DNA of 64,000 bases from Maritimibacter sp. DP1N21-5 (GTDB lineage Bacteria > Pseudomonadota > Alphaproteobacteria > Rhodobacterales > Rhodobacteraceae). Shown here piece by piece: positions 1-15,932 of the stretch. Position numbers and translations under genes: made by a program. The DNA is taken from NCBI RefSeq assembly GCF_019218295.1, contig NZ_JAHUZF010000006.1, positions 1-64,000 of the forward strand, written 5' to 3'. The notes beneath the pieces were generated by a model. It saw only the letters and a program-made list of their open reading frames with translations, was not told where the DNA came from and did no database searches. Positions within the stretch are counted from its first letter, which is position 1; every line of letters starts with the position of its first letter.

Positions 1-191
1 GCAGCGATGTCCCACGAGGCATCACCCAGACTGCGAAGAGAAGCGTGACCCGGATGAGTGACAACGGTCCCAAACAAAGAAGGAAAACGAGCTTGACCCA
101 AATGCCCAATTAGAGAAGCGGACATAAAGAAATCCTGCCAGCTTGCTTGAAATATGATTGAGCACGCAACATATCACTATCGAGTGAAGCG

Positions 192-267
192 AGGAGGTCC
201 TCGCAGGCGCCTGATAAGCGTCATGTGCCCGAAAGGGCATCCGGTTCGAGCCCGGTGCTCCCCGCCA
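192..267 (+). pseudogene. Degenerate tRNA-Ser(GCT)-like sequence
   Basis: The 3' two thirds folds like a class II tRNA. The anticodon stem is 206-210 paired with 218-222 around the seven-base loop CTGATAA at 211-217. A long variable arm, TGCCC-GAAA-GGGCA, lies at 226-239. The T arm is CCGG/CCGG around TTCGAGC at 241-255, and an encoded CCA sits at 265-267. The variable arm and discriminator G fit tRNA-Ser, and the loop differs by one base from the serine GCT loop CTGCTAA, so the apparent anticodon is GAT. No 5' strand pairs well with the acceptor GCTCCCC, and the D arm is disrupted. A broken tRNA or island attachment-site copy is the likeliest reading; a divergent functional tRNA is possible but less likely. 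Confidence 0.55.
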
Positions 268-300
268 AAGCCCGCTCTTCAGAGTGGGCTTTTATTTTTT
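268..300 (+). terminator. Intrinsic terminator after the tRNA-like sequence
   Basis: An 11-bp stem with one G-T pair (268-278 against 282-292) is followed by a T-rich run, TTTATTTTTT. It directly follows the CCA, as expected for a tRNA transcription unit, and suggests this piece was copied together with its native terminator. Confidence 0.7.
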
Positions 301-380
301 TGTCTCAAACCCGAGCCAATGCGCACGAAAGATGCTGTAGCATCGGTATTGCCGTGAAATTTTTCAAGGAATCAAACTAG

Positions 381-1130
381 ATGGAAGTCTTCTATTTCAA
401 AGGCCGCGTAGTCCCTGACCACGTACCGCTCACAGTGAACTACACTCCAAAATTCGAGCGGAAGCCAAGTGTGGAAACAGAACCCGAATCTGTCATCGAA
501 GTCTCGATTCTTGAGGGCGGGTTCCAAGTTAAAGTTGAGGTCGAGCAGTATACCGACGACAAAGCACTAGCGCTTTTCCAAGCGGCCTGGGACGCAGCTC
601 AACGCTTGGCGAATGCGGCAGGATTTATCAGTGCTATCCCTTATCAGATTGTTGTCGATTTTGTCGTGAGGCCAGACGGCTCCGTTAAAGCACTTGCACT
701 TGGTGATGCTTATCTGAGATCACTTGGTACTTTCACCGATGACGACATCGAGACCATCGCTGATCTTATGATTGCAGATCATGCATTTGGCGAAGCGGTA
801 GCAGATCTTCTATCGATGCTCAGCAAGACCCACTACGCTCCGATCAGCTATGGTAGAGTTGCGGAAAGCATCGCGCGACTCATAGCTCCAAATGAAAAGC
901 AAGGTGCCATGTGGGCTAAAGCGCGGAGCGAACTCAGGGTCAGCGAAGGTTATTTGAGAGCGCTGACGGAGGCATCAACTGATCCAAGACACGGAAATCG
1001 GACACCAGTTAGTGCGGCAACCAATCGGAAACTAAGTCAAATGGCATGGCTTCTAGTTCATCGCTATGTCCACTATCGTTTACGTGAAGGCAATCTACCA
1101 AAGGCTGAGTTTCCCGAGCTGTCTGGATAA
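381..1130 (+). CDS. Hypothetical protein, possible HEPN-like C-terminus
   Basis: A 249-aa soluble protein with no signal peptide or membrane segment. The first ~50 residues are beta-rich, with alternating charged and hydrophobic residues. The middle is helical. The C-terminal ~90 residues contain a PRHG motif followed by a long helix ending VHRYVHYR. That pattern recalls the Apea-like HEPN regions of proteins found near defence genes, but I am not certain of the match. Base composition is lower in G+C than the core genes after 6700, as in the large gene 200 bases downstream on the same strand. A short intergenic gap and shared composition suggest the two arrived together. Function unknown. 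Confidence 0.65.
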   Translation: MEVFYFKGRVVPDHVPLTVNYTPKFERKPSVETEPESVIEVSILEGGFQVKVEVEQYTDDKALALFQAAWDAAQRLANAAGFISAIPYQIVVDFVVRPDGSVKALALGDAYLRSLGTFTDDDIETIADLMIADHAFGEAVADLLSMLSKTHYAPISYGRVAESIARLIAPNEKQGAMWAKARSELRVSEGYLRALTEASTDPRHGNRTPVSAATNRKLSQMAWLLVHRYVHYRLREGNLPKAEFPELSG

Positions 1131-1329
1131 GTCTATTCTAGTTTTCCTCATCTTTTGTAGCAATCGTAGCCCATAACCGACCTCCACTAGATGATTGAAG
1201 CACTACGTTGCGGCCCGCCTTTCTGGACATTGCGTTCGCAATACCGGGCAATCTGACAAATTCATGTTTTTGCTCCACTCGAGTCCGAGTATGATAGGGC
1301 CATTCGAGCAAAAAAAATGTGGAAAATTA

Positions 1330-4300
1330 ATGACCGCAAGTCCCGAGGCAACAGGTGGCGTTGGCTACACCTTTGAAGATTCGGTAGTGGCTTCATATCT
1401 GACCAGCCTACTTGTTGAAGGCGGAGCGCGAGGGATCTCTGAAGCGATTACTGACGGCGTCCTTCTCCAGCGCGCGGCGCTTGGCGAGCCACTGGACGAC
1501 ATTATTGTGGAGGGGTCGGATCGATACGGCCAACCTTCCAAACTGGCTCTACAAGTGAAGCAAAGCCCAACGCTGAGTTCTGCTGAAACGAATACCGACT
1601 TTCGAGACGTTATTTCGGCTAGCTGGCGAGAATTCAAGAAAGACGGCTTCAGAATAGGTCGGGACCGTGTCGGACTAGCTGCTGCTAATATCGCCCAGTC
1701 CACACTCCGGGCAGCCCGCTCTACGCTTGAATGGGCTCGTACATCCAAGTCGGCAGACGATTTTTTTAGGCGGCTCGAAACCGAGAATTTCGCAAGCGAC
1801 GCACAAAGAAGGTTCGTGAGCGATGTCCAAGCTTTGCTCCCAGCAGACGCGCAAGATGAGGAAAATTCGTGGCAGTTTCTAAGGCGTTTTGTCATCCTCG
1901 TCTTTGACACGCTTTCAGAAGGAGCGTCAGGTTCGTTCGAGGCGATTGAACGTCTGAGGAATGCGCTACCAACTGGAGAGCGTCATCGTGCCGAAGAGCT
2001 TTGGGTACGACTTTCCCAGATATCACGACAAGCGTCCGGCGCAGCAGGTAGCTTTTCAAGGGCAACATTGGTTGAGCAGCTTTCGGGAGTGTTTGATCTT
2101 TCTTCTCTTCCAAGCATGCGCAGCGATCTGGTTAAGGTAGCAGAAGAAACAAGACACGCTCTTCAAGGTATCCGAATGGATATCTCTGGGCTGATTGTCC
2201 CGCGGAACAGTATTCTCGAAAAGATTAACGAAATTGATGACGGAAAGCGATTTATCCAATTAGCGGGCGAGGCCGGTTCGGGAAAGTCCGCGGTGTTACG
2301 CGCGCTGGCCGAAGAGCACGCCAGGCACGGTTTCGCTCTAGTTCTGACCGACAAGCGTCTCGTCGGCCCCGGCTGGCCCTCACTGGCCAAGCACTTGCGC
2401 CTAGAAGCGGAACGACTTGCTGACCTCCTTTTTGAGCTAGCCACACTTGGAAAACCAACTCTCTTCATCGACGGGATAGATCGCCTAGGAAATGAGACCC
2501 GTCAAACAATCTTGGATATCGTAACTATTCTTCTCGATGATCCAAGGCTTGCGGACTGGCGCGTTGTGGCATCTACCCGGTCGTCACACCTCGAGGACTT
2601 GAGAATATGGCTACCTCCTCAACTTGTTGAGGAGGGCCAAGCACACATCGTCGAGATCGATGGATTTGATGATAGTGAGGCTGGCATCCTTGCCGAGCGG
2701 TTTCCAGCGATGCACGAAGTCCTGTTCGCCGAGGGTCAAGAAAAGGAATTTGCAAGGCGCCCTTTCTTTGCTCAGGTTTTGGCACAGCGTTCAGTGGGCA
2801 CTGATGGAGCACCGGACAAATTTTCCGAGATTTCGCTGGCGCAGGTTTGGTTGGAAGGAGCGCAGGCTCTACAAGATAAAGCTTCTTCAATTGAACGCCG
2901 CCAAGCGATGGGTGAGCTAGCCGCGAGATGTGCTCAAGCAACCAATAGAAGCGCCGCAGTAGAAGGCATTTCCGCTCAAGCTCTGACGGAACTAGTACAA
3001 GAACGAGCGATAGCGGAGGTTGCGGGTAGCGGACGATATTCCTTTACCCACGACATATTTCTTGAATGGGCGATGTTCGGTTTGTGCCGCCAAAATGGTC
3101 CAGATTGGCCGAGCACCCTCACCGCCGCTGGAGACAGGCCAGGAATGATCCGGGTAGTGGAGCTACTGTCACAGTTTGAATTCGAGACCGGACACAACTG
3201 GTCAGAAACTCAATTGGCACTGGAGCAGCAGGAAGCGTGGCGTCATTGGAGCAGGGTTTGGCTCCTTGCACCATTTTCCTCGCCAGCGTTCTTTGACCGT
3301 AAAGACACGATTTCAGAATTCTTGAGGGAAGACCACCGGCTTATCAGGCTCCTTTCTTCTTTCCGCGCTCACAAAACTATCGAAAACCTTCTAGTCGTTC
3401 ATGGCGCTCTTGAACTCGGCGAGAAAACTAAGTTTGAAAAATTCAGACTAGCTGACTTCTTGTCTTGGCCCCGCCCTGTTCGGAATTGGAGGCGATTGCT
3501 GATCTGGTTGCTTTCGCTTGATTGGAACGAGGCAACGGCCGAGGACATTGTTGACACGTTCGAAGTATGGCTGAACCTGTTTCAAGATTATCCCGACAAG
3601 ATCAAAGATCGTTTTGCTGAACGAGTCGATCAGATATTGACTGAATGGGATGCCTACGACTATAGGGAACGGAGCAAAAAGATCACTCCATTAGGGTTTC
3701 GTAAGGATGGTTTCGGTCGCAAACTTCGACAGGCTTTCCTAAGATCCTCGCTCACTAACACGGACCTGCTAACTCGTAGGCTTCAAGCGTGGACAAGCGA
3801 ACGAATTGACGACAAGATCCAAACCAGCGTCTTTGCATGGAGCGTGCGCCTTGCCAGTGTTGTCCCTGAAGCCCTAGCCGACTTTTCCTTCCAAGCGTTT
3901 ATCGACCCATTACCATCAGAGTCAGCCAAGAGGTCGCGGGGGCAGATGATCGGTTGGTCGCCCCATATGAATGATTGGGATTCTCCGGGAATTTGCGACT
4001 ATTCGCGCCACTGCCATCCAGCCTCGCCTATTCAGCAACCATTCGCAGCCCTTTTCGAGCACGCGCCTCAAGAAGGTCTTCGTTTAGTTCGCAAGCTGCT
4101 CAGCCGGACCGTTGTCGCGTGGAGAGAGCTTCCCCAATACGACTATCGTAACCGAGAAATTCCGGTTTCATTTAGTGTGGAGTTCCCTTGGGGATCCCAA
4201 ACGTTTTGGGGCGGACGAAGGATTTATGGTTGGTATCGGGGTCTGTTTTCTTGCGACATCCTCGGGTCGGCACTCATGGCGCTGGAAGATTGGGCGTTCT

Positions 4301-6534
4301 CCGAGCTCGAAGCCGGACGTGACGTTGATGAGATCGTAGAGGAGCTTGTTACCGGACACGAAAGCGTGGCCACGCTGGGCATCGCTTTGGGAGTCTTGTT
4401 GGACAAGGATGCGCTGTCACCGGCGGCAGCCGCTCTGGTAGGCTGCCAGCACATCTGGGCCATGGACGAGTACCGCTGGCAACATGACGTCCAAGGCCTT
4501 CATTCAAACGAAATCGGAGCGAGCTTCGGCTTGTCTAACGATACAACTCACCTTGAAGCACTGAAACGCCTCAACTCGCGGCCTTCCCGGAAGAAGAACA
4601 TCAGATGGCTCGCGACAGCATTCATACTCACAGCTAACGACCAACGCGAAAAGGTGGCGGAAAAGCTTACTAGCTTTCCAAATGAGCTACCCTTCACCCA
4701 CGAAGGCCAAGAAGATGACGATAAGCTAGTCGCATATTTTCTGCATCGAGCCGAGGAGTGGGCCGCGATGGCAGACCTGTCGAACTATGCTCAGGTGGAA
4801 ACCGATGATGGGAAAGTCGGCGTTGCATTTCAGCCGTCAGACGAACGAGTGCAACAAGCTGAAGAAGCAGGTGAGCGGCTAGCCCATTGGAACGAAGGCT
4901 TCCAACTGCTGAACCAATGTGAGTCTTGGTTTGAGGGCGGCAAAATTGATGATCAGACGCGAGAGGAAATTGTAGCGCTCGCACGCCAGGTCGAAAACGA
5001 GGACCTGTTCAAATCTGGTTTTGATGCCGGAGACCCCGGCAGCCGCCGCGCTGGCGGAGTAGCAGCCGTGTCAGCAGCGATTCTGAGTTTGAAGCCCGAT
5101 CTTCCACGTGATCAAGTGGAATGGGCCGAAAGCGTTGCATTTCGCGCCGCCAGTACTGTTCCGGCAAACGATGAGTTTTTTCACGCTGATGCTCCTTCCG
5201 ACGACAGACCCGAAACGTTTGCATCGAAGGGATTGACGGCGATAGTCAAGAATGGCGGACCATTAGCAGGTTCAGCACAGGAAGAACTGGTTCGGTTGTG
5301 CTTTCATCCCTACAAGGGCGTGCAGTTGGCTGCGTTGGCAAATGCCGCATCATGTTGGCGAGAACACAAGGGCTTCGCTGACAAGTGCACAGCACTCGCT
5401 TTCAAGCTGACGACTCTCGAACTGGATCGTGGTTCACCTGATTGGTACCGACGACGCGATGAGAGAGAAAACAGTCTGGCGTCCGAAAAACAACGGCTGT
5501 TTGAGGCAACTATACGAGCTCTAGCTTCTGGCGAAGGAAAAGGGCTGTCTGAGACGTATGCCGAAATCGAGCCGGAACACTTAGATCAATGGCGGGTCAA
5601 GGATTTCGCGTCGGTGTTGTCGATCATCCCGAAAGACAGGTTCAACGAAGATCATGCTTTTCGTGACGACCTAATAGCTCTTCTGCATAGCTTCGTTGAA
5701 AAGCTCACTGCGGCAATTGGCGCAGCTGACGAAGCCGAGCACCGTTCAGGTTCAAGGCTAAGTTTGGAGTTTTCCAGTTGCATTTGGGACTTGGCAGCGC
5801 TGTGCGAGAAATTGCCAATTCAAAGTATTCGTAGTGCAATCATACCTATCCTGTCTCAGTTGCCCCATGAGCCGAAGAGCGAAGCTCTCTCGACTTTCGC
5901 AAATGCGTACTCCTGCATGCGACTTCTGGATTCACCGACAGTTCCAGCGGGCATTGTTGATGTTTTTCTCGACATCTTTGAGGCAGTCGCAGATGACCCG
6001 GATTGGAAGCGTCCGGAGTGGCGGGAGGACTATGGACTTCCCGAGCAGCTTCACAAATTGGTTCGTATCGCAATGGGGGCAAATTGGGATCGGCCAGCAA
6101 TGGGTGCGGCCCGCTTCGCTAACAATGATTGGTCCGATGCAAAGCTACTGGACCCATTGATTGATTGGATGCTCGAAAGATTTGGCCATCTACCGCAGGT
6201 CATGCAAGCATTCTTGCTCCATGTTGAAAGGTCATTCGATCACCGCAGCAGCGAATTCCTCGCTTCGAGGTTGGGAGGCATCGCGCCCGCAGTTTGGCAG
6301 TCTAGAGGGTTTTGGTCCGGGGGAAGAACTGCGCAACTCGCCGGTCTATTTCAATCCTTTGCCGAACGAGACGCCCCATTGCAGTCTGATGTCCACGTTC
6401 AGTTCTTGGAGATTCTCGATCACTTGACTGAACTTGGGGATCGTCGCGCAGCAGCACTTCAAATGAGCTCGCTGTTTGACCGGCCACGTTTCAGCAATCC
6501 GCCACAGGTCTTACAAATCGAAACTTCGCCGTGA
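1330..6534 (+). CDS. Avs-like STAND NTPase with N-terminal PD-(D/E)XK-like nuclease region
   Basis: The frame is open from 1195, but the first 45 codons look non-coding. The ATG at 1330 (MTASPEA) is the better start and gives 1,734 aa. The N-terminal ~170 residues hold an acidic pair (D56, D57), strand residues and Q75-V-K77, a D...(Q/E)xK pattern seen in Cap4/DUF4297-type nucleases; E16 lies in an early helix. A P-loop GEAGSGKS is at about 313-320, a Walker B LFIDGIDRL at about 378-386, and an ASTRS sensor follows, as in STAND/NACHT-like ATPases. The remaining ~1,200 residues are helical and rich in W, E and R, with no named domain that I recognise; this fits a repeat-type sensor arm. Antiviral STAND (Avs) proteins share this order of effector, NTPase and sensor, and several recognise phage terminase or portal proteins. 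Role in phage defence is inferred. Confidence 0.7.
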   Translation: MTASPEATGGVGYTFEDSVVASYLTSLLVEGGARGISEAITDGVLLQRAALGEPLDDIIVEGSDRYGQPSKLALQVKQSPTLSSAETNTDFRDVISASWREFKKDGFRIGRDRVGLAAANIAQSTLRAARSTLEWARTSKSADDFFRRLETENFASDAQRRFVSDVQALLPADAQDEENSWQFLRRFVILVFDTLSEGASGSFEAIERLRNALPTGERHRAEELWVRLSQISRQASGAAGSFSRATLVEQLSGVFDLSSLPSMRSDLVKVAEETRHALQGIRMDISGLIVPRNSILEKINEIDDGKRFIQLAGEAGSGKSAVLRALAEEHARHGFALVLTDKRLVGPGWPSLAKHLRLEAERLADLLFELATLGKPTLFIDGIDRLGNETRQTILDIVTILLDDPRLADWRVVASTRSSHLEDLRIWLPPQLVEEGQAHIVEIDGFDDSEAGILAERFPAMHEVLFAEGQEKEFARRPFFAQVLAQRSVGTDGAPDKFSEISLAQVWLEGAQALQDKASSIERRQAMGELAARCAQATNRSAAVEGISAQALTELVQERAIAEVAGSGRYSFTHDIFLEWAMFGLCRQNGPDWPSTLTAAGDRPGMIRVVELLSQFEFETGHNWSETQLALEQQEAWRHWSRVWLLAPFSSPAFFDRKDTISEFLREDHRLIRLLSSFRAHKTIENLLVVHGALELGEKTKFEKFRLADFLSWPRPVRNWRRLLIWLLSLDWNEATAEDIVDTFEVWLNLFQDYPDKIKDRFAERVDQILTEWDAYDYRERSKKITPLGFRKDGFGRKLRQAFLRSSLTNTDLLTRRLQAWTSERIDDKIQTSVFAWSVRLASVVPEALADFSFQAFIDPLPSESAKRSRGQMIGWSPHMNDWDSPGICDYSRHCHPASPIQQPFAALFEHAPQEGLRLVRKLLSRTVVAWRELPQYDYRNREIPVSFSVEFPWGSQTFWGGRRIYGWYRGLFSCDILGSALMALEDWAFSELEAGRDVDEIVEELVTGHESVATLGIALGVLLDKDALSPAAAALVGCQHIWAMDEYRWQHDVQGLHSNEIGASFGLSNDTTHLEALKRLNSRPSRKKNIRWLATAFILTANDQREKVAEKLTSFPNELPFTHEGQEDDDKLVAYFLHRAEEWAAMADLSNYAQVETDDGKVGVAFQPSDERVQQAEEAGERLAHWNEGFQLLNQCESWFEGGKIDDQTREEIVALARQVENEDLFKSGFDAGDPGSRRAGGVAAVSAAILSLKPDLPRDQVEWAESVAFRAASTVPANDEFFHADAPSDDRPETFASKGLTAIVKNGGPLAGSAQEELVRLCFHPYKGVQLAALANAASCWREHKGFADKCTALAFKLTTLELDRGSPDWYRRRDERENSLASEKQRLFEATIRALASGEGKGLSETYAEIEPEHLDQWRVKDFASVLSIIPKDRFNEDHAFRDDLIALLHSFVEKLTAAIGAADEAEHRSGSRLSLEFSSCIWDLAALCEKLPIQSIRSAIIPILSQLPHEPKSEALSTFANAYSCMRLLDSPTVPAGIVDVFLDIFEAVADDPDWKRPEWREDYGLPEQLHKLVRIAMGANWDRPAMGAARFANNDWSDAKLLDPLIDWMLERFGHLPQVMQAFLLHVERSFDHRSSEFLASRLGGIAPAVWQSRGFWSGGRTAQLAGLFQSFAERDAPLQSDVHVQFLEILDHLTELGDRRAAALQMSSLFDRPRFSNPPQVLQIETSP

Positions 6535-6557
6535 GGCCAGATCATAACTTCGTGTCC

Positions 6558-6634
6558 AAGGTCCGCTTTAAAGGGCTATGGCTTGCCCGTTTGCAACCGC
6601 AGCGAAGGTCCGCTTCGTCCGCACAGCGGACCTT
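6558..6634. repeat. Three copies of an 11-base element, two forming an inverted repeat
   Basis: AAGGTCCGCTT occurs at 6558-6568 and again at 6605-6615. The inverse AGCGGACCTT lies at 6625-6634, giving a 10-bp perfect stem with a nine-base loop (6605-6634). The element sits at the switch from the lower-G+C segment to high-G+C core sequence. It may be the terminator of the large upstream gene, a dispersed intergenic repeat, or a trace of the island boundary. Confidence 0.5.
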
Positions 6635-6726
6635 TCCAAATCGCGCGCAGGCATCACGACCGCGTGACGCCGCTTTATCCGTCGTGTTACCCTCTTACCT
6701 CAAAGGCAACCGCCAACTGAGGAGAC

Positions 6727-7224
6727 ATGAACATGACCACCTCACTGCCCCGCCGCACCGTTCTTGCCACCGGCTCCGCCGCCCTGCTCACCACCGGTCT
6801 TACGCTCCCTGCCCGCGCCCAGGGGATCGCCCCCACGCCCACAATGCGGGGCGGCGCCAACAATTACCGCCCCGGCGCGCCCATCATGGACCGCATCGGG
6901 GGTGGCGGCTTCCTGATGACAGGCACCGTTCTGCGCGCAGGTGACGGGGCACCCATTCCCAACGCACGCATCCAGATGTGGGCCCACACGACCGAAGGGC
7001 ACGAGCGCGACGAACGCAGCCATGGCGCCACGCTCACGGACGCGCAGGGCCGCTTCCAGATGGACATGCCCCAAATCGTGCCCGCCTTCGGCCAGCCACA
7101 CGGCCACCTCGCCTATGATGCAGACTACGACGACAACGGGTTCGAGACGGTGTTCCTGCGCCCGATCATGGCCAGCGCCTCCGACACAACGCTTGATGTG
7201 CAATTCGTGCTGGTCCCGGCCTGA
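6727..7224 (+). CDS. Tat-exported intradiol dioxygenase-fold protein
   Basis: A 165-aa protein with a twin-arginine signal (PRRTVLA followed by a hydrophobic stretch to ARAQG at about residue 35). The mature part has the beta-sandwich pattern of intradiol ring-cleavage dioxygenases: a carboxypeptidase-regulatory-like opening (TGTVLRAGDGAPIPNARIQMWAHT), DAQGRFQMD, then PHGHLAYDADYDDNGF. The family uses non-haem Fe(III), but the canonical two-Tyr/two-His set is not clearly complete here. It may be a secreted non-catalytic or altered member. The AGGAG at 6720-6724 lies too close to the ATG at 6727, so the in-frame ATG at 6733 is also a good start. The following membrane protein begins four bases later, suggesting co-expression. 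Confidence 0.75.
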   Translation: MNMTTSLPRRTVLATGSAALLTTGLTLPARAQGIAPTPTMRGGANNYRPGAPIMDRIGGGGFLMTGTVLRAGDGAPIPNARIQMWAHTTEGHERDERSHGATLTDAQGRFQMDMPQIVPAFGQPHGHLAYDADYDDNGFETVFLRPIMASASDTTLDVQFVLVPA

Positions 7225-7227
7225 TCC

Positions 7228-7851
7228 TTGTTGCGCGCCACTCTGATCTGGGCGGCGCTCGGCGTTGCACTTCTGGCCCCGATCACGGCAGCAGCGTTCA
7301 GCCCGCTTCTGCAATGGCGCGAGGGGATCTACATCGCCTCCGGCTTTGCCGGTATCCTCGGCATGGCGCTTTTGCTCCTGCAACCCTTGCTCGCGGCAGG
7401 TGACCTGCCCGGTCTGTCCCCTACGCGCAGCCGCCGCATCCACCGCATTACGGGCGCGCTACTTGTCCTTGCCGTTGTGGGCCACGTCGCCGGGCTCTGG
7501 ATCACCAGCCCGCCCGATGTGATCGACGTGCTGCTCTTTCGCTCTCCTACACCCTTTGCCATCTGGGGCGTGATCGCCATGTGGGCCGTCTTCGCCGCAG
7601 CTCTGATCGCCGCCCTGCGCAAACGCCTGCCCCTGCGCCCAACATCATGGCGCCGCCTGCACGCAGCGCTGGTGGTCACGGTAGCGGGCGGGACGGTTGC
7701 GCACGCCTTGCTGATCCAGGGCACGATGGAGCCGTTCACCAAATACGCCCTGAGCATCTGTGTTGGTCTGGCGGCCCTGCGCATCGCGTTTATCGGCGGC
7801 ATGATCCCGCGTTTACCCTTTGGCAACGCGTCGCAGCGCACGCACCGTTAA
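7228..7851 (+). CDS. Ferric reductase-like / cytochrome b-type membrane protein
   Basis: A 207-aa integral membrane protein with about six hydrophobic helices. Histidines in the membrane part (RRIHRITG, VVGHVAGL, RRLHAALV, TVAHALLIQG) are placed like haem ligands in the ferric reductase-like transmembrane domain (MsrQ/YedZ and relatives). It probably moves electrons across the inner membrane. It starts with TTG four bases after the Tat-exported dioxygenase-like protein, so a shared periplasmic redox job is plausible but unproven. It is not the usual MsrQ context because no msrP lies beside it. Confidence 0.65.
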   Translation: MLRATLIWAALGVALLAPITAAAFSPLLQWREGIYIASGFAGILGMALLLLQPLLAAGDLPGLSPTRSRRIHRITGALLVLAVVGHVAGLWITSPPDVIDVLLFRSPTPFAIWGVIAMWAVFAAALIAALRKRLPLRPTSWRRLHAALVVTVAGGTVAHALLIQGTMEPFTKYALSICVGLAALRIAFIGGMIPRLPFGNASQRTHR

Positions 7852-8018
7852 ACACGGATTTTGTGCCGGACCGGTGTACGGGGGGTGTACAGAGGGTGCA
7901 CGCCCGGTGCATCGCCCATATCCCTTGTTTTACGGGCGTTAACCCCCGATTCTCCACCAATCAGGAAAACAGCCCGTTAACCGTTGCGCGTACGGTGGTC
8001 GCCGGGCCATAAGCGCCC

Positions 8019-8792
8019 ATGCTCAGCTACCAGCACATCTATCACGCCGGAAACCTCGCCGACGTCCACAAGCACAGCCTGCTCGCCTGGATGCTCGCCT
8101 ACCTCACGCGCAAGGACAAACCGGTCAGCTACATCGAGACGCATGGCGGGCGTGCGCTCTATGATCTGGGGGCAGACGAAGCGCTGAAAACGGGCGAAGC
8201 TGCGCAGGGGATCGCGCGGGCGCGGGACTGGTTTGCGCCTGACCATCCTTACATCAAGTGCCTGACGCAAACCTCTGGCTTACATGGACAAAATGCATAC
8301 CCCGGTTCACCTCTGTTCGCCACCCAAATCCTGCGCGACACTGACAGCCTGACCATCGCAGAACTGCACCCGGCCGAACACAACGCCCTCGAATTGGCGC
8401 TGCCCACGGCCAAGGTTCACCGCGCCGACGGCTTTGCAATGGCGCACTCGATCCTACCGCCCACGCCGCGGCGGGGTCTGATGCTGATCGACCCCAGCTA
8501 CGAGATCAAGGACGACTACCAAACGATCCCCGGGCATATCCGAAAATACGCACGCGCCTGGAATGTGGGCATCATTGTGCTGTGGTACCCGATTCTGACA
8601 TCAGGCGCGCACAACAACATGCTGAAATCACTTGAGAAAGACCACCATGATGCCCTCAGGCACGAGGTCCGCTTTCCCCCCGCAAGACCGGGGCATGGCA
8701 TGGTGGGATCCGGCCTATTCGTGATCCGACCGCCCTTCGGTCTTGCCGAAGAAGCCGCAATTCTGAAAACTCATTTCGACCAGCTGAAGTGA
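8019..8792 (+). CDS. rlmJ: 23S rRNA (adenine(2030)-N6)-methyltransferase RlmJ
   Basis: A 257-aa protein that opens MLSYQHIYHAGNLADVHKH, matching the conserved RlmJ N-terminus. The class I methyltransferase fold is visible, with the catalytic DPPY motif present as DPSYE (LMLIDPSYEIKDDY); the proline-to-serine change still fits N6-adenine methyltransferases. A GSGLFVIRPPFGL region near the end is also typical. It methylates A2030 of 23S rRNA using S-adenosylmethionine. The stop overlaps the first codon of the next gene, which encodes a TerB-like protein. Confidence 0.9.
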   Translation: MLSYQHIYHAGNLADVHKHSLLAWMLAYLTRKDKPVSYIETHGGRALYDLGADEALKTGEAAQGIARARDWFAPDHPYIKCLTQTSGLHGQNAYPGSPLFATQILRDTDSLTIAELHPAEHNALELALPTAKVHRADGFAMAHSILPPTPRRGLMLIDPSYEIKDDYQTIPGHIRKYARAWNVGIIVLWYPILTSGAHNNMLKSLEKDHHDALRHEVRFPPARPGHGMVGSGLFVIRPPFGLAEEAAILKTHFDQLK

Positions 8793-9232
8793 CCAAAATG
8801 TTCGAACGCCTATTCCCCAAAAGACCCAAAGAAACCGCGCCCTTGCCGGAGCCAACACCGCAACTGGCCCTGGGCGCGCTGCTGGTGCGTGTGGCGATGG
8901 CCGATCGGGAGTATCAGGCCCCCGAAGTCGCCGCCATCGACAAGATCCTCGCTGCGACCTTCAACCTAAAGCCGCTTGAAGCCGCCAAGCTGCGTGCCAC
9001 GTGCGAGGCATTGGAACGACATGCGCCCGGCACACCAGAGTACACGGATATCCTCAGGGAAACAGTAGCTTACGAGGATCGACGCGGCCTCGCCGTGGCG
9101 ATGTGGCAGGTGCTTCTGGCCGATGGTGACCATGCCCGGATCGAAGAGGATGTGCTGCACCAGATCGAAGCCGCCCTTGCCATTACACCCGAAGACAGCG
9201 CCGCCATCCGAACGCAAGCGCTTGGCGACTAA
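8789..9232 (+). CDS. TerB-like protein
   Basis: A 147-aa acidic, all-helical protein. The repeated pattern LLVRVAMADREYQAPEVAAIDKIL and MWQVLLADGDHARIEEDVLHQI is the double-helix motif of the TerB/DjlA N-terminal fold, a likely metal-binding domain of unknown biochemical role. Short and cytosolic. Start is GTG 8789 overlapping rlmJ by four bases, or ATG 8798. A paralogue follows 24 bases downstream, so the two probably act together. Confidence 0.8.
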   Translation: MTKMFERLFPKRPKETAPLPEPTPQLALGALLVRVAMADREYQAPEVAAIDKILAATFNLKPLEAAKLRATCEALERHAPGTPEYTDILRETVAYEDRRGLAVAMWQVLLADGDHARIEEDVLHQIEAALAITPEDSAAIRTQALGD

Positions 9233-9256
9233 CGTATAGCGGCATATATCGCTCCC

Positions 9257-9691
9257 ATGTTCCAAGACCTGCTCAAACGGCTGATCCAGCCCGAACCCGC
9301 CCAACTTCCCGATGCTGACGCTCGACTGGCCCTCACGGCTTTGCTGGTGCGCGTGGCCCGGTCCGACAATGACTATTCCGGCGACGAACGGGTGCTGATC
9401 GACCAGATCGCGCAGGATCGCTACAGGCTTTCTGCAAGCGATGCCATAGCGTTACGCACCGAAGCTGAAGCCATGGAAGCCGAAGCCCCCGACACCGTGC
9501 GCTTCACCCGCGCGATCAAGGACGCCGTCCCGTACGAAGAGCGTCTGGCCGTGATCGAAGCGCTCTGGAAGGTGGTTCTGGCCGACGGGCAACGGGCACA
9601 GGAAGAGGATGCGCTTTTGCGGCTCGTCACCAACCTGCTGGGCATCACCGACCAGGACAGCGCCAAGGCACGCCAGCGCGTCAGCGGATGA
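9257..9691 (+). CDS. TerB-like protein, second copy
   Basis: A 144-aa paralogue of the preceding gene. LLVRVARSDNDYSGDERVLIDQIA and LWKVVLADGQRAQEEDALLRLV match the same two-helix motif with conserved acidic residues. The two proteins start with the same kind of short basic/amphipathic segment. Its stop overlaps the ATG of the next gene (9688) by four bases, so rlmJ, both terB-like genes and the PhnD-like gene look like one transcription unit. Confidence 0.8.
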   Translation: MFQDLLKRLIQPEPAQLPDADARLALTALLVRVARSDNDYSGDERVLIDQIAQDRYRLSASDAIALRTEAEAMEAEAPDTVRFTRAIKDAVPYEERLAVIEALWKVVLADGQRAQEEDALLRLVTNLLGITDQDSAKARQRVSG

Positions 9692-10425
9692 TCGCATCGC
9701 TCGGCATGTACGACATGCCGCACCTCCAACGCGCCCATGACCGGCTATGGGCTGGCATCCGCACTGCCCTTGGATATGGCCCCGACCACCTCACTCGGGG
9801 TGGTGATCCATGGGCGGAATGGCAATCCCCCGACCTGCTTCTGGCCCAGACCTGTGGCCTGCCGTATCGGGCACGGTTGCATGACAAGGTCACACTCGTC
9901 GGCACGCCGGATTATGACCTGCCGGATTGTCCATCGGGGTATTACTTCAGCTACCTGATCCGACGGCGCGACGACCCTCGGCCCTTGAGAGAGCTTTCGA
10001 AACAAGGGGTTATGGCCTACAACGAACCGCTATCACAATCCGGTTGGGCCGCTCCGGTGGCGCATTTGGCCGCGCGTGGGCTAAGACCGAAGCGGATCAA
10101 ACAAACCGGGTCCCACTTGGGAAGCATTAATAGTGTGCTGTTAAAAACAGCAGATTACGCAGCCATCGACGCCGTAACAATGCTCCTCTGGGGCGCTCAC
10201 GATATGGATGCGGTTGCTTATCTCGAAGCTTTCGACACGACCGAACCAACACCGGCACTGCCCTATATCACCGCACTGGATCGCGATCCCGCACCAATTG
10301 CGGATGCCGTACGCTCAGCCATCGCTGCAATGCCACACGAGGACCGGTGCGATCTGCGCCTCAAGGGGATGGTCGACATCCCGGCATCCGAGTACCTCGC
10401 CCTGCCCATTCCGCCCACGCCCTGA
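9688..10425 (+). CDS. PhnD-like phosphate/phosphonate-binding-fold protein, no signal peptide
   Basis: A 245-aa protein with the order of features of PhnD-type periplasmic binding proteins: DLLLAQTCGLPYRARL, a central SGYYFSYLIRRRDD strand, an NEPLSQSGW motif and a TGSHLGSI segment, then DAVTMLLWGAHD. No signal peptide precedes it, the start is fixed by the four-base overlap with the upstream gene, and no ABC permease lies next to it. It therefore probably works in the cytosol or as a non-classical binding protein. Ligand unknown. Confidence 0.7.
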   Translation: MIASLGMYDMPHLQRAHDRLWAGIRTALGYGPDHLTRGGDPWAEWQSPDLLLAQTCGLPYRARLHDKVTLVGTPDYDLPDCPSGYYFSYLIRRRDDPRPLRELSKQGVMAYNEPLSQSGWAAPVAHLAARGLRPKRIKQTGSHLGSINSVLLKTADYAAIDAVTMLLWGAHDMDAVAYLEAFDTTEPTPALPYITALDRDPAPIADAVRSAIAAMPHEDRCDLRLKGMVDIPASEYLALPIPPTP

Positions 10426-10550
10426 TCAATCCGGCCTCTCCCCACGTCAATTTGCGCAAAACGCAGGCAAAACGTCCCTTTTGCCCGTGGACAAGGCACA
10501 TCTTTTCCTCCCTTATACCGGCTGATCGAAACAGACGTAGCTGCCCACAC

Positions 10551-11324
10551 GTGTCCGACACCGCCGTTATCGAAATCCGCAACCTACACAAAGCCTATGG
10601 CACGCTCGAGGTGCTGAAAGGCGTGGATATTCGGGCGAAACGCGGTGACGTGGTGTCGCTGATCGGGTCATCCGGATCGGGCAAATCAACACTTCTACGC
10701 TGCTGCAACCTGCTGGAAGACAGCCAGCAGGGCGAGGTTCTGTTCAAGGGCGAACCGGTCACCTGGAAAGGCAGCGATCACGCCCGCCGCCCCGCCGACG
10801 CAAAGCAGGTTCTGCGTATCCGCACGAACCTGTCCATGGTGTTCCAGCAGTTCAACCTGTGGGCCCACATGACGATCCTGCAAAACGTGATGGAAGCGCC
10901 CGTGACCGTCCTGCGCCGCGACCCGGCAGAGGTCGAGCAGGCCGCCCGCAAATACCTGGACAAGGTGGGCATTGGCGACAAATGCGACGTCTATCCGGCC
11001 CAATTGTCCGGTGGCCAGCAGCAACGTGCGGCGATTGCGCGGGCACTTTGCATGGAGCCGGAAGCGCTGCTGTTTGACGAACCAACCAGTGCCCTGGACC
11101 CTGAACTGGAACAGGAAGTTGTCAAGGTGATCAAGGACTTGGCCGCCGAAGGGCGCACCATGCTGATTGTCACGCATGATATGAAACTGGCCCATGACGT
11201 GAGCGACCATGTCGTATTCCTGCATCAGGGCCTGATCGAAGAACAAGGGGCGCCCGACGATCTGTTCGGCGCGCCCAAATCGGAACGTCTGCGCGGGTTT
11301 CTGTCTGCAACCCACGCCGCGTAA
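10551..11324 (+). CDS. Polar amino-acid ABC transporter ATP-binding protein
   Basis: A 257-aa HisP/ArtP/GlnQ-type ATPase: Walker A GSSGSGKST, Q-loop FQQFNLW, signature LSGGQQQRAAIARAL, Walker B LLFDEPTSALD and switch His in VTHDM. The start is GTG at 10551 (VSDTAVIEIR); the longer upstream frame has no family similarity. With the binding protein and two permeases downstream it forms a complete importer. The insert between Walker A and Q-loop (KGSDHARRPADAKQV) is typical of the HisP branch. Substrate is probably arginine, histidine or a related basic compound. Confidence 0.92.
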   Translation: MSDTAVIEIRNLHKAYGTLEVLKGVDIRAKRGDVVSLIGSSGSGKSTLLRCCNLLEDSQQGEVLFKGEPVTWKGSDHARRPADAKQVLRIRTNLSMVFQQFNLWAHMTILQNVMEAPVTVLRRDPAEVEQAARKYLDKVGIGDKCDVYPAQLSGGQQQRAAIARALCMEPEALLFDEPTSALDPELEQEVVKVIKDLAAEGRTMLIVTHDMKLAHDVSDHVVFLHQGLIEEQGAPDDLFGAPKSERLRGFLSATHAA

Positions 11325-11351
11325 ATCAACACACCAACGGGAGTATCACTC

Positions 11352-12074
11352 ATGAAATCCATCCTTCTTTCGACGGTTGCGGTCGCGGTGACCGCCACGT
11401 TCGCCCTGGCCGACGGTCACTCGGTCGTGCGCATGGGCACCGAGGGCGCCTACCCTCCCTACAACTTCATCAACGACGCCGGTGAAGTGGACGGGTTCGA
11501 GCGTGAGCTGGGCGACGAACTGTGCGCGCGCGCCGAACTGACCTGCGAATGGGTCACCAACGAATGGGACAGCATCATCCCCAACCTGGTGTCCGGCAAC
11601 TATGACACGATCATCGCGGGCATGAGCATCACGGACGAGCGTGACGAGGTTATCGACTTCACTCAGAACTACACCCTGCCCGACCCGTCGGCCTATGTCG
11701 CCATGTCGGCAGATGTTGATCTGGAAGGCGGCGTACTGGCTGCGCAAGCCAATACGATCCAGGCGGCTTTCATCGCCGAAACCGGCGCGACACTGGTCGA
11801 ATTTGCGACACCCGAGGAAACGATCGCTGCCGTCAAAAACGGTGAAGCCGACGCGGTTCTGGCCGACAAAGCATTCCTGACACCCATCGCCGACGAAGAC
11901 GCCGACCTGATGATGCTCGACAAGGAAGAGCTGATCGGCGGCGGCATCGGTCTGGGCCTGCGTGAAAGCGACACCGAGCTGAAAGAGAAGTTCGACGCGG
12001 CCATCACCTCGATGAAGGAAGACGGCTCGCTGAACGAACTGATCGCCAAATGGGAAATCGGCGACGGTTTCTAA
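11352..12074 (+). CDS. Polar amino-acid ABC transporter periplasmic binding protein
   Basis: A 240-aa SBP_bac_3 protein with a cleavable signal peptide (to about residue 21, ALADG). Motifs include GTEGAYPPYNFINDAGEVDGFERELGDE, IIPNLVSGNYDTIIAGMSIT and ERDEVIDFTQNY, all standard for the HisJ/ArtJ family. Start ATG 11352 has GGGAG about eight bases upstream. It lies between the ATPase and permease genes and is followed by a strong terminator, which probably gives the binding protein higher expression than the permeases. Confidence 0.92.
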   Translation: MKSILLSTVAVAVTATFALADGHSVVRMGTEGAYPPYNFINDAGEVDGFERELGDELCARAELTCEWVTNEWDSIIPNLVSGNYDTIIAGMSITDERDEVIDFTQNYTLPDPSAYVAMSADVDLEGGVLAAQANTIQAAFIAETGATLVEFATPEETIAAVKNGEADAVLADKAFLTPIADEDADLMMLDKEELIGGGIGLGLRESDTELKEKFDAAITSMKEDGSLNELIAKWEIGDGF

Positions 12075-12086
12075 AGACCATTTAGC

Positions 12087-12117
12087 AGGGCGGAGGACAC
12101 CTCCGCCCTCCTTTTTC
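12087..12117 (+). terminator. Hairpin terminator between binding protein and permease genes
   Basis: AGGGCGGAG (12087-12095) pairs with CTCCGCCCT (12101-12109), followed by CCTTTTT. It is inside the transporter operon, so partial read-through or a stabilising role for the upstream mRNA is likely. Confidence 0.8.
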
Positions 12118-12125
12118 TGGCGTTC

Positions 12126-13010
12126 ATGTTTTCCTTCTGTACCGATCCAAGCACCCTGCCCGACTGGCAGTGGATGGCGTGCTACCTGACAACGGGCAAG
12201 CACATGTCGATCTATTGGTCGGTGCTGACTGTCTTTTTACTGTTGGCCATCACTGCGCCCGCGGCCCTGGCCTTTGGTTTTGCCGGAGCCTCGGCGGCTC
12301 GATCGCGTATTGCGCCAGTGTCCTGGCTCGGGCGCGGCTACATCGCGATTGTACGGGGCGTGCCCGATATCGCGTTTTTCCTGTTTTTCGTGATCGCGCT
12401 TGACCAGGCCATTGAATATCTGCGCCACCGCGCACTTTGCCCCGACTGGACCGACCCCATCCGCCAAGGCAACGATTTTGTGGTCTGTGCGGCGGCCAAG
12501 ATGCCCCTGGGCAATGCCCCGCAATGGATGCACGAAACTTACGGCTTTGGCCTTGCCGTTTTAACCTTCGCCATCGTGTTCGGCGCCTTCGCAGCCAATG
12601 TGCTCTACGGCGCCATGCGCGCCGTGCCCAAGGCGCAGCTCGAGACGGCAGAAGCCTATGGCATGACCACGCGCCAGACCTTCTGGCGGGTGATGGTGCC
12701 CCAGATGTGGGTTTTTGCCCTGCCGGGCCTGTCAAACCTGTGGATGGTACTGATCAAGGCGACACCCCTTCTGTTTCTTTTGGGTGTCGAAGACATCGTG
12801 TATTGGGCGCGCGAATTGGGCGGGACCAAGACCTCGCGCTTTACGGAGTACCCACATGGCGACTGGCGCATGTGGTACTTTCTCGCGCTGCTGATCTTCT
12901 ACCTGATGTTCACCCGCGCGTCCGAGATCGTCCTCGACAGGTTGATGGTGCGCCTGACGCATGGACAAGCGACGACAGGCGGTGAAGCACAGCGAAAGGC
13001 CGCCGCTTGA
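12126..13010 (+). CDS. Amino-acid ABC transporter permease
   Basis: A 294-aa inner-membrane permease of the HisQM family. It has about five to six hydrophobic helices and the EAA loop (ETAEAYGMTTRQTFWRVMVPQMW). A periplasmic-facing insert (HRALCPDWTDPIRQGNDFVVCAAAK) is longer than in E. coli HisQ/ArtQ. The ATG lies nine bases after the terminator T-run. The stop overlaps the next permease start by four bases, so the two are translationally coupled and likely form a heterodimer. Confidence 0.88.
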   Translation: MFSFCTDPSTLPDWQWMACYLTTGKHMSIYWSVLTVFLLLAITAPAALAFGFAGASAARSRIAPVSWLGRGYIAIVRGVPDIAFFLFFVIALDQAIEYLRHRALCPDWTDPIRQGNDFVVCAAAKMPLGNAPQWMHETYGFGLAVLTFAIVFGAFAANVLYGAMRAVPKAQLETAEAYGMTTRQTFWRVMVPQMWVFALPGLSNLWMVLIKATPLLFLLGVEDIVYWARELGGTKTSRFTEYPHGDWRMWYFLALLIFYLMFTRASEIVLDRLMVRLTHGQATTGGEAQRKAAA

Positions 13011-13816
13011 TGTCCTGCGCCCAGACCATCATGGACTACGGCCTGCGCTCCATCGGGATTGGCGAACGGCTCCTGCCGCGCGATGACTTCACGCTGTGCC
13101 AGCAGTTCACCCTGATCGGCTCTGGCATGATCTGGAACATCTATTTTGGCCTGCTCGCACTGGCTTTCGGCTTTGTCCTGGCCACGGCGGTCGCCATGGG
13201 CAAGAACGCGCAGTCGAAGCTGATCCGCAAGCCATCGGAATGGTTCATTTTCATCTTCCGAGGCTCGCCGCTCTTTATCCAGTTCTTCTTTGCCTACTTC
13301 CTGTTCCTGCAGCTCAAGGGCGTGCACCCCTTCTTTCATCCCTTCTCGGCCGCATGGCTGGGCGCGCTGATTGTCCTGTTCCTGAACACCGCCGCTTACT
13401 CAGCCGAGATTTTCTACGGCGCGTTGCAATCCATCCCCAAGGGCGAGGTCGAGGCCGCCGATGCCTACGGCTTATCCGGCTGGCCCCGCTTCAAGCGCGT
13501 CGTCTGGCCCACGATGCTGCGGCTGGGCTGGCCGGCCTATACGAACGAAGCCATCTTTCTGTTTCACGCCACGACACTGGTGTATTTCTCCGGCTTTCCG
13601 GCGTGGCAACAGCGGGGCGATGCGCTCTACTACGCGAATTACTTTGCAGACAAGACGTTCAACCCGTTTGTACCCTATCCCATCCTTGCAGGATATTTCA
13701 TCCTGCTGACGTTGATCATCATTGGCATCTTTGGCCTGGTGAACCGTCGCCTGAACCGCCATTTGCCAGCCAACACGCGCCAGAAGATGAAGCTGCGCAT
13801 GAACCTGATCCGGTGA
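13007..13816 (+). CDS. Amino-acid ABC transporter permease, second subunit
   Basis: A 269-aa HisM/ArtM-type permease: RGSPLFIQFFFAYF in the second helix region and the EAA loop GEVEAADAYGLSGWPRFKRVVWPTM. ATG overlaps the preceding stop (ATGA). Together with the ATPase and binding protein it completes the importer that precedes the gamma-glutamylation genes. Confidence 0.88.
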   Translation: MMSCAQTIMDYGLRSIGIGERLLPRDDFTLCQQFTLIGSGMIWNIYFGLLALAFGFVLATAVAMGKNAQSKLIRKPSEWFIFIFRGSPLFIQFFFAYFLFLQLKGVHPFFHPFSAAWLGALIVLFLNTAAYSAEIFYGALQSIPKGEVEAADAYGLSGWPRFKRVVWPTMLRLGWPAYTNEAIFLFHATTLVYFSGFPAWQQRGDALYYANYFADKTFNPFVPYPILAGYFILLTLIIIGIFGLVNRRLNRHLPANTRQKMKLRMNLIR

Positions 13817-13865
13817 AGGATTTTGTGCCTCCGGCGGGCATACTTGTCGGAACAATGAAAGACGC

Positions 13866-15203
13866 GTGATGCACGATTGGCTTACAGACAACCCTGAAAT
13901 CCGCGCGATCCGCGTGGCTGCTGCCGATCTGAACGGGGTGGCGCGGGGCAAACGGATGCCGGTGCGCTTTGCCGACAAGGTGGCGCGAGATGGCACGCGC
14001 TTTCCCATGTCCGTCCTGAACCTCGACATCTGGGGCGAGGATATCGAGGACAGTCCGTTGGTCCTTGCCTCGGGCGACCGCGACGGCGTCCTGCGTCCGA
14101 CCGAGCGTGGTTTCGTACCGATGCCGTGGCTGAACACACCCACCGGGCTGCTGCCGATCTGGATGTATCACGAAGATGGCCGCCCCTTCATGGGCGATCC
14201 GCGCCATGCCCTGGCCGACGTGCAAAAACGTTTCACAGACACGGGCTTGACCCCCGTTGTTGCAGTGGAGCTTGAGTTCTTCCTGATTGACGACGCAGGC
14301 AGCCGGTTGCGCGTGCCGCCGTCGCCGCGCTCAGGCAAACGGCGCGTGGCGGGCGAGATTCTGTCGATGCGCACCCTCGATGCCTTCGACGATTTCTTTA
14401 CCGAGCTCTACGATGCTTGCGAGGCAATGGACGTCCCCGCCGACACCGCCATTTCCGAAAGCGGTCTGGGCCAGTTCGAAATCAACCTGATGCACCAGCC
14501 CGACGCGCTGAAAGCGGCAGATGACGCGTGGCTGTTCAAGATTCTGGTCAAGGGACTGGCGCGCAAGCACGGGTTCGCCGCATCCTTCATGGCCAAGCCC
14601 TACCCCGACTATGCCGGCAACGGTCTGCACATGCACTTTTCGGTGTTGGATGCGGATGGCAACAACATCTTTGACGACGGCACGGACGCGGGCAGCGATG
14701 CCCTGCGCCACGCCATTCAGGGATGTCTAGCCGCCATGCCCGGCTCCATGCTGGTTTTTGCACCGCATGCCAATTCCTATGCCCGCCTCGTGCCCGGCGC
14801 CCACGCGCCCACGGGTATCGCCTGGGCCTATGAGAACCGAACGGCGGCGATCCGCGTGCCTTCCGGCCCCACCGCAGCGCGGCGCATCGAACACCGCCTT
14901 GCCGGGGGCGACGTGAACCCGTACCTGTCCATTGCCGCGGTCCTCGGCGCCGCACTGAACGGGATCGAGGATGCCACCGAGCCACAAGCGCCGATCACCG
15001 GCAACGCTTACGCGCAGGACCTGCCGCAGGTGCCGGGCACGTGGGACAGCGCGATAACCGCTTTTGAAAACAGTCCCGAGATCGCGCGCATTTTCGACGC
15101 CGAACTGATCCGCAACATGCTCATGACCAAGCGGCAGGAGGCAAAGCACATGGCCGACCTCAGCCCCGAGGAACAGACCGAAATCTACCTCGACAGCGTC
15201 TGA
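13866..15203 (+). CDS. Glutamine synthetase family ligase (PuuA-like)
   Basis: A 445-aa GlnA-type protein. The N-terminal beta-grasp opens at ADLNGVARGKRMP. The catalytic domain has VVAVELEFFLID (metal-binding Glu), ESGLGQFEINL, GNGLHMHFSV, the ATP-loop-like region PGAHAPTGIAWAYENRTAAIRVP and HRLAGGDVNPYLSIAA. It resembles gamma-glutamylpolyamine synthetases more than nitrogen-assimilation GlnA, which is usually longer at the C-terminus and carries an adenylylation Tyr. It probably joins glutamate to an amine using ATP. Neighbours (amidotransferase, second ligase, PuuB-like oxidase) support a Puu-type pathway. Confidence 0.85.
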   Translation: MMHDWLTDNPEIRAIRVAAADLNGVARGKRMPVRFADKVARDGTRFPMSVLNLDIWGEDIEDSPLVLASGDRDGVLRPTERGFVPMPWLNTPTGLLPIWMYHEDGRPFMGDPRHALADVQKRFTDTGLTPVVAVELEFFLIDDAGSRLRVPPSPRSGKRRVAGEILSMRTLDAFDDFFTELYDACEAMDVPADTAISESGLGQFEINLMHQPDALKAADDAWLFKILVKGLARKHGFAASFMAKPYPDYAGNGLHMHFSVLDADGNNIFDDGTDAGSDALRHAIQGCLAAMPGSMLVFAPHANSYARLVPGAHAPTGIAWAYENRTAAIRVPSGPTAARRIEHRLAGGDVNPYLSIAAVLGAALNGIEDATEPQAPITGNAYAQDLPQVPGTWDSAITAFENSPEIARIFDAELIRNMLMTKRQEAKHMADLSPEEQTEIYLDSV

Positions 15204-15242
15204 GCAGCACACTATCTTCGCCGCGCAACCATCGGGTGATCC

Positions 15243-15932
15243 ATGAAAATCGGCATTCTGCAAACCGGCCACGCGCCCGACGAAGTGTTGGGCAGCTTGG
15301 GCGACTACGACGCCATGTTCGCGCGCCTCCTGGACGGGCACGGCTTTGAGTTCCAAACCTTCAATGTCGTGGATATGGAGTTTCCCGACGGGCCGAACGC
15401 CTGCGATGGCTGGCTTGTGACGGGGTCGAAACATGGCGCGTACGAAGATCATCCGTTCATTCCACCGCTCGAAGACCTGATCCGCGCCATTCACGCCTCA
15501 GGCCGCCCCATGATCGGGGTCTGTTTCGGCCATCAGATCATAGCGCAGGCCATGGGGGGCAAGGTGGTCAAGTTTGATGGCGGTTGGTCTGTGGGACGGC
15601 GCGAATATGCATACAAGGGCGAAACATTGGCCGTGAATGCATGGCATCAGGATCAGGTTGTCGAATTGCCCCCGGCTGCAGAGGTCATTGGGTCCAACGA
15701 CTTTTGCGAATATGCTGCACTTGTCTATGGTGACCGCATCTGGACCGTTCAGCCGCATCCCGAATTCGGGGCCGACATGATCGACGCCCTGACCAAATAT
15801 CGTGCCCCGGGTGTGGTCCCTGACCCGCTGATTGAAACAGCCCGCGCGCAGCTCGACACGCCAACACAGCGCAACAGGATCGCCGAAGACATGGCGGCTT
15901 TCCTCAAACAGGGGGCCTGCGTCGATGTCTGA
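15243..15932 (+). CDS. Class I glutamine amidotransferase-like hydrolase
   Basis: A 229-aa GATase1 domain protein. The nucleophile Cys is in IGVCFGHQIIAQAMGG and the catalytic His-Glu pair in VQPHPEFG. It stands alone without a synthetase domain, as in YfeJ-like proteins. Within a Puu-like cluster it may hydrolyse a gamma-glutamyl amide, the PuuD step, although PuuD itself belongs to the C26 branch and this protein is nearer to the GMP-synthase-like branch. The stop overlaps the next ligase start by eight bases. Confidence 0.8.
   Translation: MKIGILQTGHAPDEVLGSLGDYDAMFARLLDGHGFEFQTFNVVDMEFPDGPNACDGWLVTGSKHGAYEDHPFIPPLEDLIRAIHASGRPMIGVCFGHQIIAQAMGGKVVKFDGGWSVGRREYAYKGETLAVNAWHQDQVVELPPAAEVIGSNDFCEYAALVYGDRIWTVQPHPEFGADMIDALTKYRAPGVVPDPLIETARAQLDTPTQRNRIAEDMAAFLKQGACVDV

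Follow-up and report, generated by a model that had tools for sequence, protein, structure and literature searches.

An Avs4-like STAND protein joining a Cap4-type nuclease to an Avs4-type sensor arm in Maritimibacter sp. DP1N21-5

The first 64,000 nucleotides of contig NZ_JAHUZF010000006.1 of Maritimibacter sp. DP1N21-5 (assembly GCF_019218295.1), hereafter the window, contain a gene for a 1734-residue protein in which a nuclease of the Cap4 type is followed by a NACHT ATPase, a winged helix and a sensor arm of the Avs4 type. This architecture is close to certain. The protein is best explained as an Avs4-type STAND immune receptor, encoded by a single gene and directed against phage, whose effector has been exchanged; we regard this account as likely. 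An anti-phage role as such is highly probable, and a phage portal protein is the likely ligand, its binding being what we infer. The receptor is real and intact, is probably mobile, and most likely combines known parts anew rather than introducing a new kind of sensor.

Nuclease, ATPase and sensor arm

Positions 1330-6534 form a single open frame, counted from the ATG at 1330; the mechanically called open reading frame (ORF) extends upstream to a TTG at 1195. Of 13 close relatives with a complete N-terminus, 11 begin with the residue that position 1330 encodes; the start of P0006 and P0014 lies 12 residues upstream. Residue conservation was read from 70 aligned long family members and from A1, an alignment of 29 family members not selected by motif. 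The 78 loci that carry relatives, with the window itself as L034 (100% match), were compared for context. Loci L029-L106 were found with a scan for HDIFLEW-like and FPWGxQxFW patterns, so conservation of these motifs there partly follows from the way the loci were chosen; the A1 counts are free of that choice.

The translation confirmed E16, LDDI at 55-58 and LQVK at 74-77. D56, D57, Q75 and K77 are invariant in the 70 long members. In A1 rows with letters at the site, D56 and D57 are kept in 27/27, K77 in 28/28 and Q75 in 27/28, the sole exception being P0032, a protein without the present nuclease. The N-terminus has a PD-(D/E)XK fold with D...QxK, and the best Foldseek match of its model was Avs3 (PDB 8DGC; E = 6.5e-10), which has the same nuclease-STAND order. 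As to a sequence match with a DUF4297/Cap4 model, Pfam gave none up to E 1 and PADLOC offered only DUF626_VIII (E = 9.2e-11). Alignment of the nuclease to the Avs4 N-terminus by hhalign gave no profile homology (Prob 0.1, 14 columns). The Avs3 N-terminus is presumably of the Cap4 type and that of Avs4 presumably an Mrr-like nuclease. Computation shows the N-terminus to be a PD-(D/E)XK domain of the Cap4/DUF4297/HamA/LmuA kind (chain A of 8zue, from Hachiman, is taken to be HamA), with putative cutting of double-stranded DNA. Nucleases of this kind are known from Cap4 (CBASS), HerA-DUF4297, Lamassu LmuA and Hachiman; here the domain is joined to a STAND receptor instead.

Pfam applied to the whole protein named only NACHT above its cut-off (residues 309-457, 31.3 bits against 26.7). 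The P-loop, the Walker B motif and a winged helix with a conserved His-Asp, by which a STAND/NACHT protein is recognized, are all present. G313, G318, K319, D381, D384, R417, H574, D575, E579 and W580 are invariant across the 70 long members. The first five are also identical in every lettered A1 row (27 or 28 of 29), and H574, D575, E579 and W580 are kept in all 29. The motif at 572-580, which reads THD.YEEWA in Avs4, was placed at what we take to be the MHD-like position of the winged helix. Being conserved both in the 70 members and in the unselected A1, the named nuclease, P-loop and Walker B residues do not reflect chance. An hhalign comparison with the Avs4 STAND (NACHT-like) ATPase indicated homology (Prob 97.9, E = 4.4e-13). 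Two PADLOC candidate models, PDC-M54A and DUF626_VIII, match residues 12-581 and 5-270 of the receptor (P0001) and 22 and 27 of the 29 family members, respectively; PDC-M54A has no match to the P0001 sensor arm. Animal NLRs (NLRC4, NLRP9, NOD2) differ in their effector and sensor domains.

The sensor model has the Avs4 fold along the full length of the arm, shared over 1003 residues, and a profile alignment likewise matches the arm to the Avs4 family. The NCBIfam Avs4 model NF041815 matched all 29 family members (best E = 6.1e-31). Compared with Avs4 (AVAST type 4; PDB 8DGF), the arm fold is shared and the NACHT/winged-helix switch homologous, whereas the nuclease is not homologous by profile; the receptor exceeds the Avs4 taken for comparison (1570 residues) by about 160 residues. 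Avs3 is absent from the 50 matches listed for the sensor model, which proves no difference. Residues 895-1015 are one of the two most conserved stretches of the arm and hold a hairpin (strands at model positions 374-378 and 381-386). Its strict form FPWGxQxFWG occurs in 60 of 66 rows, with W954, W960 and G961 in 66 of 66; F952, W954, W960 and G961 are kept in all 29 A1 rows.

An earlier note, made from the letters alone, had proposed a D...QVK motif (D56/D57, Q75-K77), a P-loop at 313-320, a Walker B at 378-386 and then about 1,200 residues without a named domain. The motifs lie at those residues, and Pfam names no domain C-terminal of NACHT. The nuclease-STAND-sensor order and the kinship with Avs proposed there are supported, and the PD-(D/E)XK fold on which that note had staked its reading of the N-terminus was predicted. 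Its suggestion that the long arm may define a new recognition class is not supported: the Avs4 fold over the entire arm and the profile alignment to Avs4 rule out a new sensor fold. A changed ligand despite the Avs4 fold is possible.

Family, distribution and exchanged N-termini

A search of about 5.8 billion proteins returned at least 31 relatives at E 1e-3, and a sensor-profile search at least 206 at 1e-10 (120 of the 206 listed); scoring was confined to the candidates with the most words in common, 7990 and 7993 respectively. The 31 fall into a tight group at 84-91% identity that includes Phaeobacter inhibens, Roseibium album and Tateyamaria, a pair at 51-56%, and a wider set at around 25-35%. 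The last of them, P0033, matched over only 22%. The relative in L029 is 94% identical. A decayed, non-functional copy is very improbable: the contig terminates 1.3 kb upstream of the gene, which would suit decay, but the frame is full-length with every motif intact, and full-length relatives exist at these high identities.

In the GTDB collection, relatives are encoded in 152 stretches, of which 78 loci were retained, mostly from Proteobacteria and also from Negativicutes, Myxococcota, Nitrospirota and Fibrobacteres, among others. Within the bacterial family, 17 of 295 genomes match at E 1e-3. Nine of these matches are convincing, at E 1.7e-21 or stronger, and in two of the nine genomes the match is confined to frames of about 551 residues; the other eight are short, lie around the P-loop and have E 6.8e-5 or weaker. 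None of the seven other genomes of the genus has a match. The 50,697 phage records hold no relative at E 1e-10, and relatives occur in 20 of 72,556 plasmid records at E 1e-20, one with at least 80% coverage.

In an unrooted FastTree tree with 70 members of the family and 10 Avs4 proteins, a single fully supported branch parts the two sets. The tree requires 30 changes of taxonomic class (69 loci, some with a phylum label or none, and no shuffle control), which fits horizontal transfer.

Both the ATPase and the nuclease profile exceed 30 bits in 124 of the 135 proteins P0001-P0135. Nine have the ATPase profile without the present nuclease, seven of them starting inside or just before the ATPase, and two (P0033 and P0002, the unrelated neighbouring protein) have no ATPase profile match. 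Many N-terminal effector types are reportedly listed in the primary Avs paper. P0032 and P0131 have the same ATPase and sensor with an unrelated N-terminus of about 240 residues, which by eye has a trypsin-like His-Asp-Ser arrangement and in which Pfam named nothing. Fusion of trypsin-like proteases to AVAST proteins is described in PMC12799240. P0033 carries the nuclease (189.9 bits) on a NACHT with a HEAT/TPR arm; its QVK reads QVT by eye, so it may be inactive. The combination of a Cap4-type nuclease with an Avs4-type arm was not found in the open-access literature searched, including that on Roseobacter with AVAST, and may be reported elsewhere.

Genomic context and mobility

G+C is 52.5% over positions 116-6621 against 61.1% over 6622-64000, in line with the lower-G+C segment of the earlier note and with a foreign, mobile context. 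Positions 116-6622 are likely, judged from sequence, to be a transferred unit: this block is common to Roseovarius L035 (94% identity over 116-1398, 89% over 6401-6622) and has no match past its ends, over the short flank open to comparison (115 bases on the left, 336 on the right of L035). The other genomes of the genus do not keep the downstream flank: one of the seven has a single 26-base match, so no empty site can be demonstrated. By eye, a dnaE2-like gene precedes the block in L035; dnaE2-like matches in the Maritimibacter genome lie on other contigs, apart from one short match at 2.03 Mb of the same contig.

The tRNA-like sequence that the earlier note saw at the edge stands in part. 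By eye, the element at about 195-301 has a T-arm-like stretch, a CCA and then a terminator-like hairpin, and it occurs once in the genome and also in Roseovarius L035 (about 8868-8973). ARAGORN found no tRNA in the window, which rules the element out as a tRNA. Rfam, searched over bases 1-1500 up to E 1, returned rnk_pseudo alone, whose 32.9 bits fall short of the gathering score of 55, and an rnk leader was rejected on that ground. For P0002, Pfam, PADLOC and NCBIfam gave no match up to E 1. It accompanies the receptor in only 2 of 78 loci, the window and Roseovarius L035, and is a passenger rather than an obligate partner.

Transfer RNA genes and integrases adjoin some relatives. tRNA-Phe lies 73-86 bases downstream of the gene in L031-L033, tRNA-Ala lies 956 bases upstream of it in L029, and some tRNA is present in 15 of 78 loci. 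No cluster of neighbouring ORFs, under the clustering used, recurs in more than 10 of 78 loci, which excludes a conserved accessory gene; the one that reaches 10 lies 409 to 6616 bases from the gene, and its five scanned members are tyrosine integrases. L032 has the order integrase, primase-polymerase gene, receptor, tRNA-Phe over 3467-15377, a satellite-like island, and L033 has a primase-polymerase gene that is very similar by eye. In L032 and L033 the receptor gene therefore seems to ride an integrative element.

Of 456 ORFs within 5 kb of the gene in L029-L079, 289 were scanned, and the first 25 of 146, 148, 125 and 98 matches were listed. Among the matches listed, PADLOC at E 1e-10 gave models of CBASS, Gabija, Septu, AriA, AbiE and others (no background rate), and Pfam gave nine Phage_integrase proteins (5 and 4). 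The housekeeping neighbourhood that the earlier note had named as a refutation is thus not what some orthologues show, defence genes lying near them, again with no background rate. A STAND regulator or stress switch with a housekeeping function and no phage role can still be considered, since STAND ATPases include regulators and the relatives' neighbours are often ordinary genes. It is made highly unlikely by the invariant nuclease motif, absence from the seven other genomes of the genus, low G+C, the block common to another genus, integrases and defence genes near some relatives, and the scattered taxonomy on the tree.

Table 1. Coordinates of the receptor gene, its parts and adjacent features in the window.
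Feature	Positions	Strand	Remark
Avs4-like STAND protein: Cap4-type nuclease, NACHT/winged-helix domain, Avs4-type sensor arm	1330..6534	+	1734 aa
N-terminal PD-(D/E)XK (Cap4/DUF4297-like) nuclease domain	1330..2094	+	residues 1-255
Putative catalytic D56-D57...Q75-x-K77	1495..1560	+	identical in 70/70 long members
NACHT ATPase, winged helix and helical domain	2182..3249	+	residues 285-640
P-loop GEAGSGKS	2266..2289	+	residues 313-320
Walker B, LFIDGIDR region	2458..2484	+	residues 377-385; D381, D384 70/70
F-T-H-D-x-x-x-E-W motif, MHD-like winged-helix position	3043..3069	+	residues 572-580
C-terminal alpha-solenoid sensor arm, Avs4 fold	3250..6531	+	residues 641-1734
Family hairpin FPWGxQxFWG, within sensor arm	4171..4212	+	residues 948-961
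Block common to Roseovarius L035, no match past its ends; likely transferred unit	116..6622	.	
tRNA-3'-end-like element with terminator-like hairpin	195..301 (approx.)	+	
P0002, no family	381..1130	+	249 aa

Elsewhere in the window, a 312-residue ORF (49052-49990, minus strand) with an HNH-like CxxC...EH look lies in the kilobase of lowest G+C (45%). It had no Pfam match at E 0.001, and a gene that is ThyX-like by eye adjoins it. A 536-residue RTX calcium-binding repeat protein (20425-22035) has nine Pfam HemolysinCabind stretches.

Proposed mechanism, ligand and significance

At rest, the NACHT and winged-helix domains, with their conserved His-Asp, would hold the protein with ADP. Once a tailed phage produces portal protein, the sensor arm would bind it and ADP would be exchanged for ATP. 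The protein would then oligomerize, as the four Avs4 chains in PDB 8DGF suggest; ATP-dependent trimerization is given instead for Avs2 in PMC12724215. Oligomerization would bring the nuclease domains together to cut DNA, and the cell would die or stall ahead of phage release (abortive infection). The gene probably travels as a cargo cassette, and in some genomes tRNAs and integrases lie next to it. Sensing of the portal by Avs4 and of terminase by Avs1-3 is stated in PMC12724215, and killing by Avs1-4 nucleases through cutting of phage and host genomes in PMC12931631.

Several points weigh against this account. Both the ligand and the cutting of DNA are what we infer. Pfam, searched up to E 1, matched the N-terminus neither to DUF4297 nor to any other nuclease. 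Identity of the sensor arm to Avs4 in the profile alignment is 13%, and NF041815 scored 73.9 bits against a cut-off of 1500; far below this curated threshold, the protein is filed as Avs4-like and not as Avs4. The FPWGxQxFWG hairpin, present in 0 of 40 Avs4 proteins, is family-specific as far as tested. The smallest starred set of the tree that goes beyond the five Roseobacter-type members also takes in L102 and the ten Avs4 proteins (98*). The window's group may therefore stand nearer to Avs4 than the remaining family does, in an unrooted tree flagged for long-branch joining. Many ordinary genes also lie in the neighbourhood (no background rate). Finally, the ligand can vary within one family of Avs receptors: an Avs2 binds both terminase and Ksap1 (PMC12724215).

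The same Avs4-type machine could have an arm that has drifted to terminase or another virion part, with FPWGxQxFWG in a new reading surface. The low sensor identity and the fully supported branch between the family and Avs4 fit such drift, as do the reported ligand change within Avs and a hairpin, set in the conserved 895-1015, whose key residues occur in all unselected rows and in none of the Avs4 proteins. We nevertheless consider drift unlikely, given that the fold is kept over 1003 residues. Moreover, portals are read across less than 5% sequence similarity (PMC11249213), and low receptor identity is therefore not in itself a sign of another ligand. Rather tentatively, the family could be a widespread clade beside Avs4, with a different nuclease and its own reading of phage, in which the hairpin would contact either another ligand or another face of the portal.

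Among the matches listed, the relatives' source names, where given, are generic ('ATP-binding protein', 'NACHT domain-containing protein', 'AAA family ATPase', 'hypothetical protein'), and Avs surveys may therefore overlook this branch. An Avs4-type receptor with an exchanged effector suggests that the sensor chassis of Avs4 extends far outside the curated family and operates with unrelated front ends, at least two and probably three of them. Whether ligand choice is set by the fold of the arm, whatever nuclease is attached, thereby becomes directly testable.
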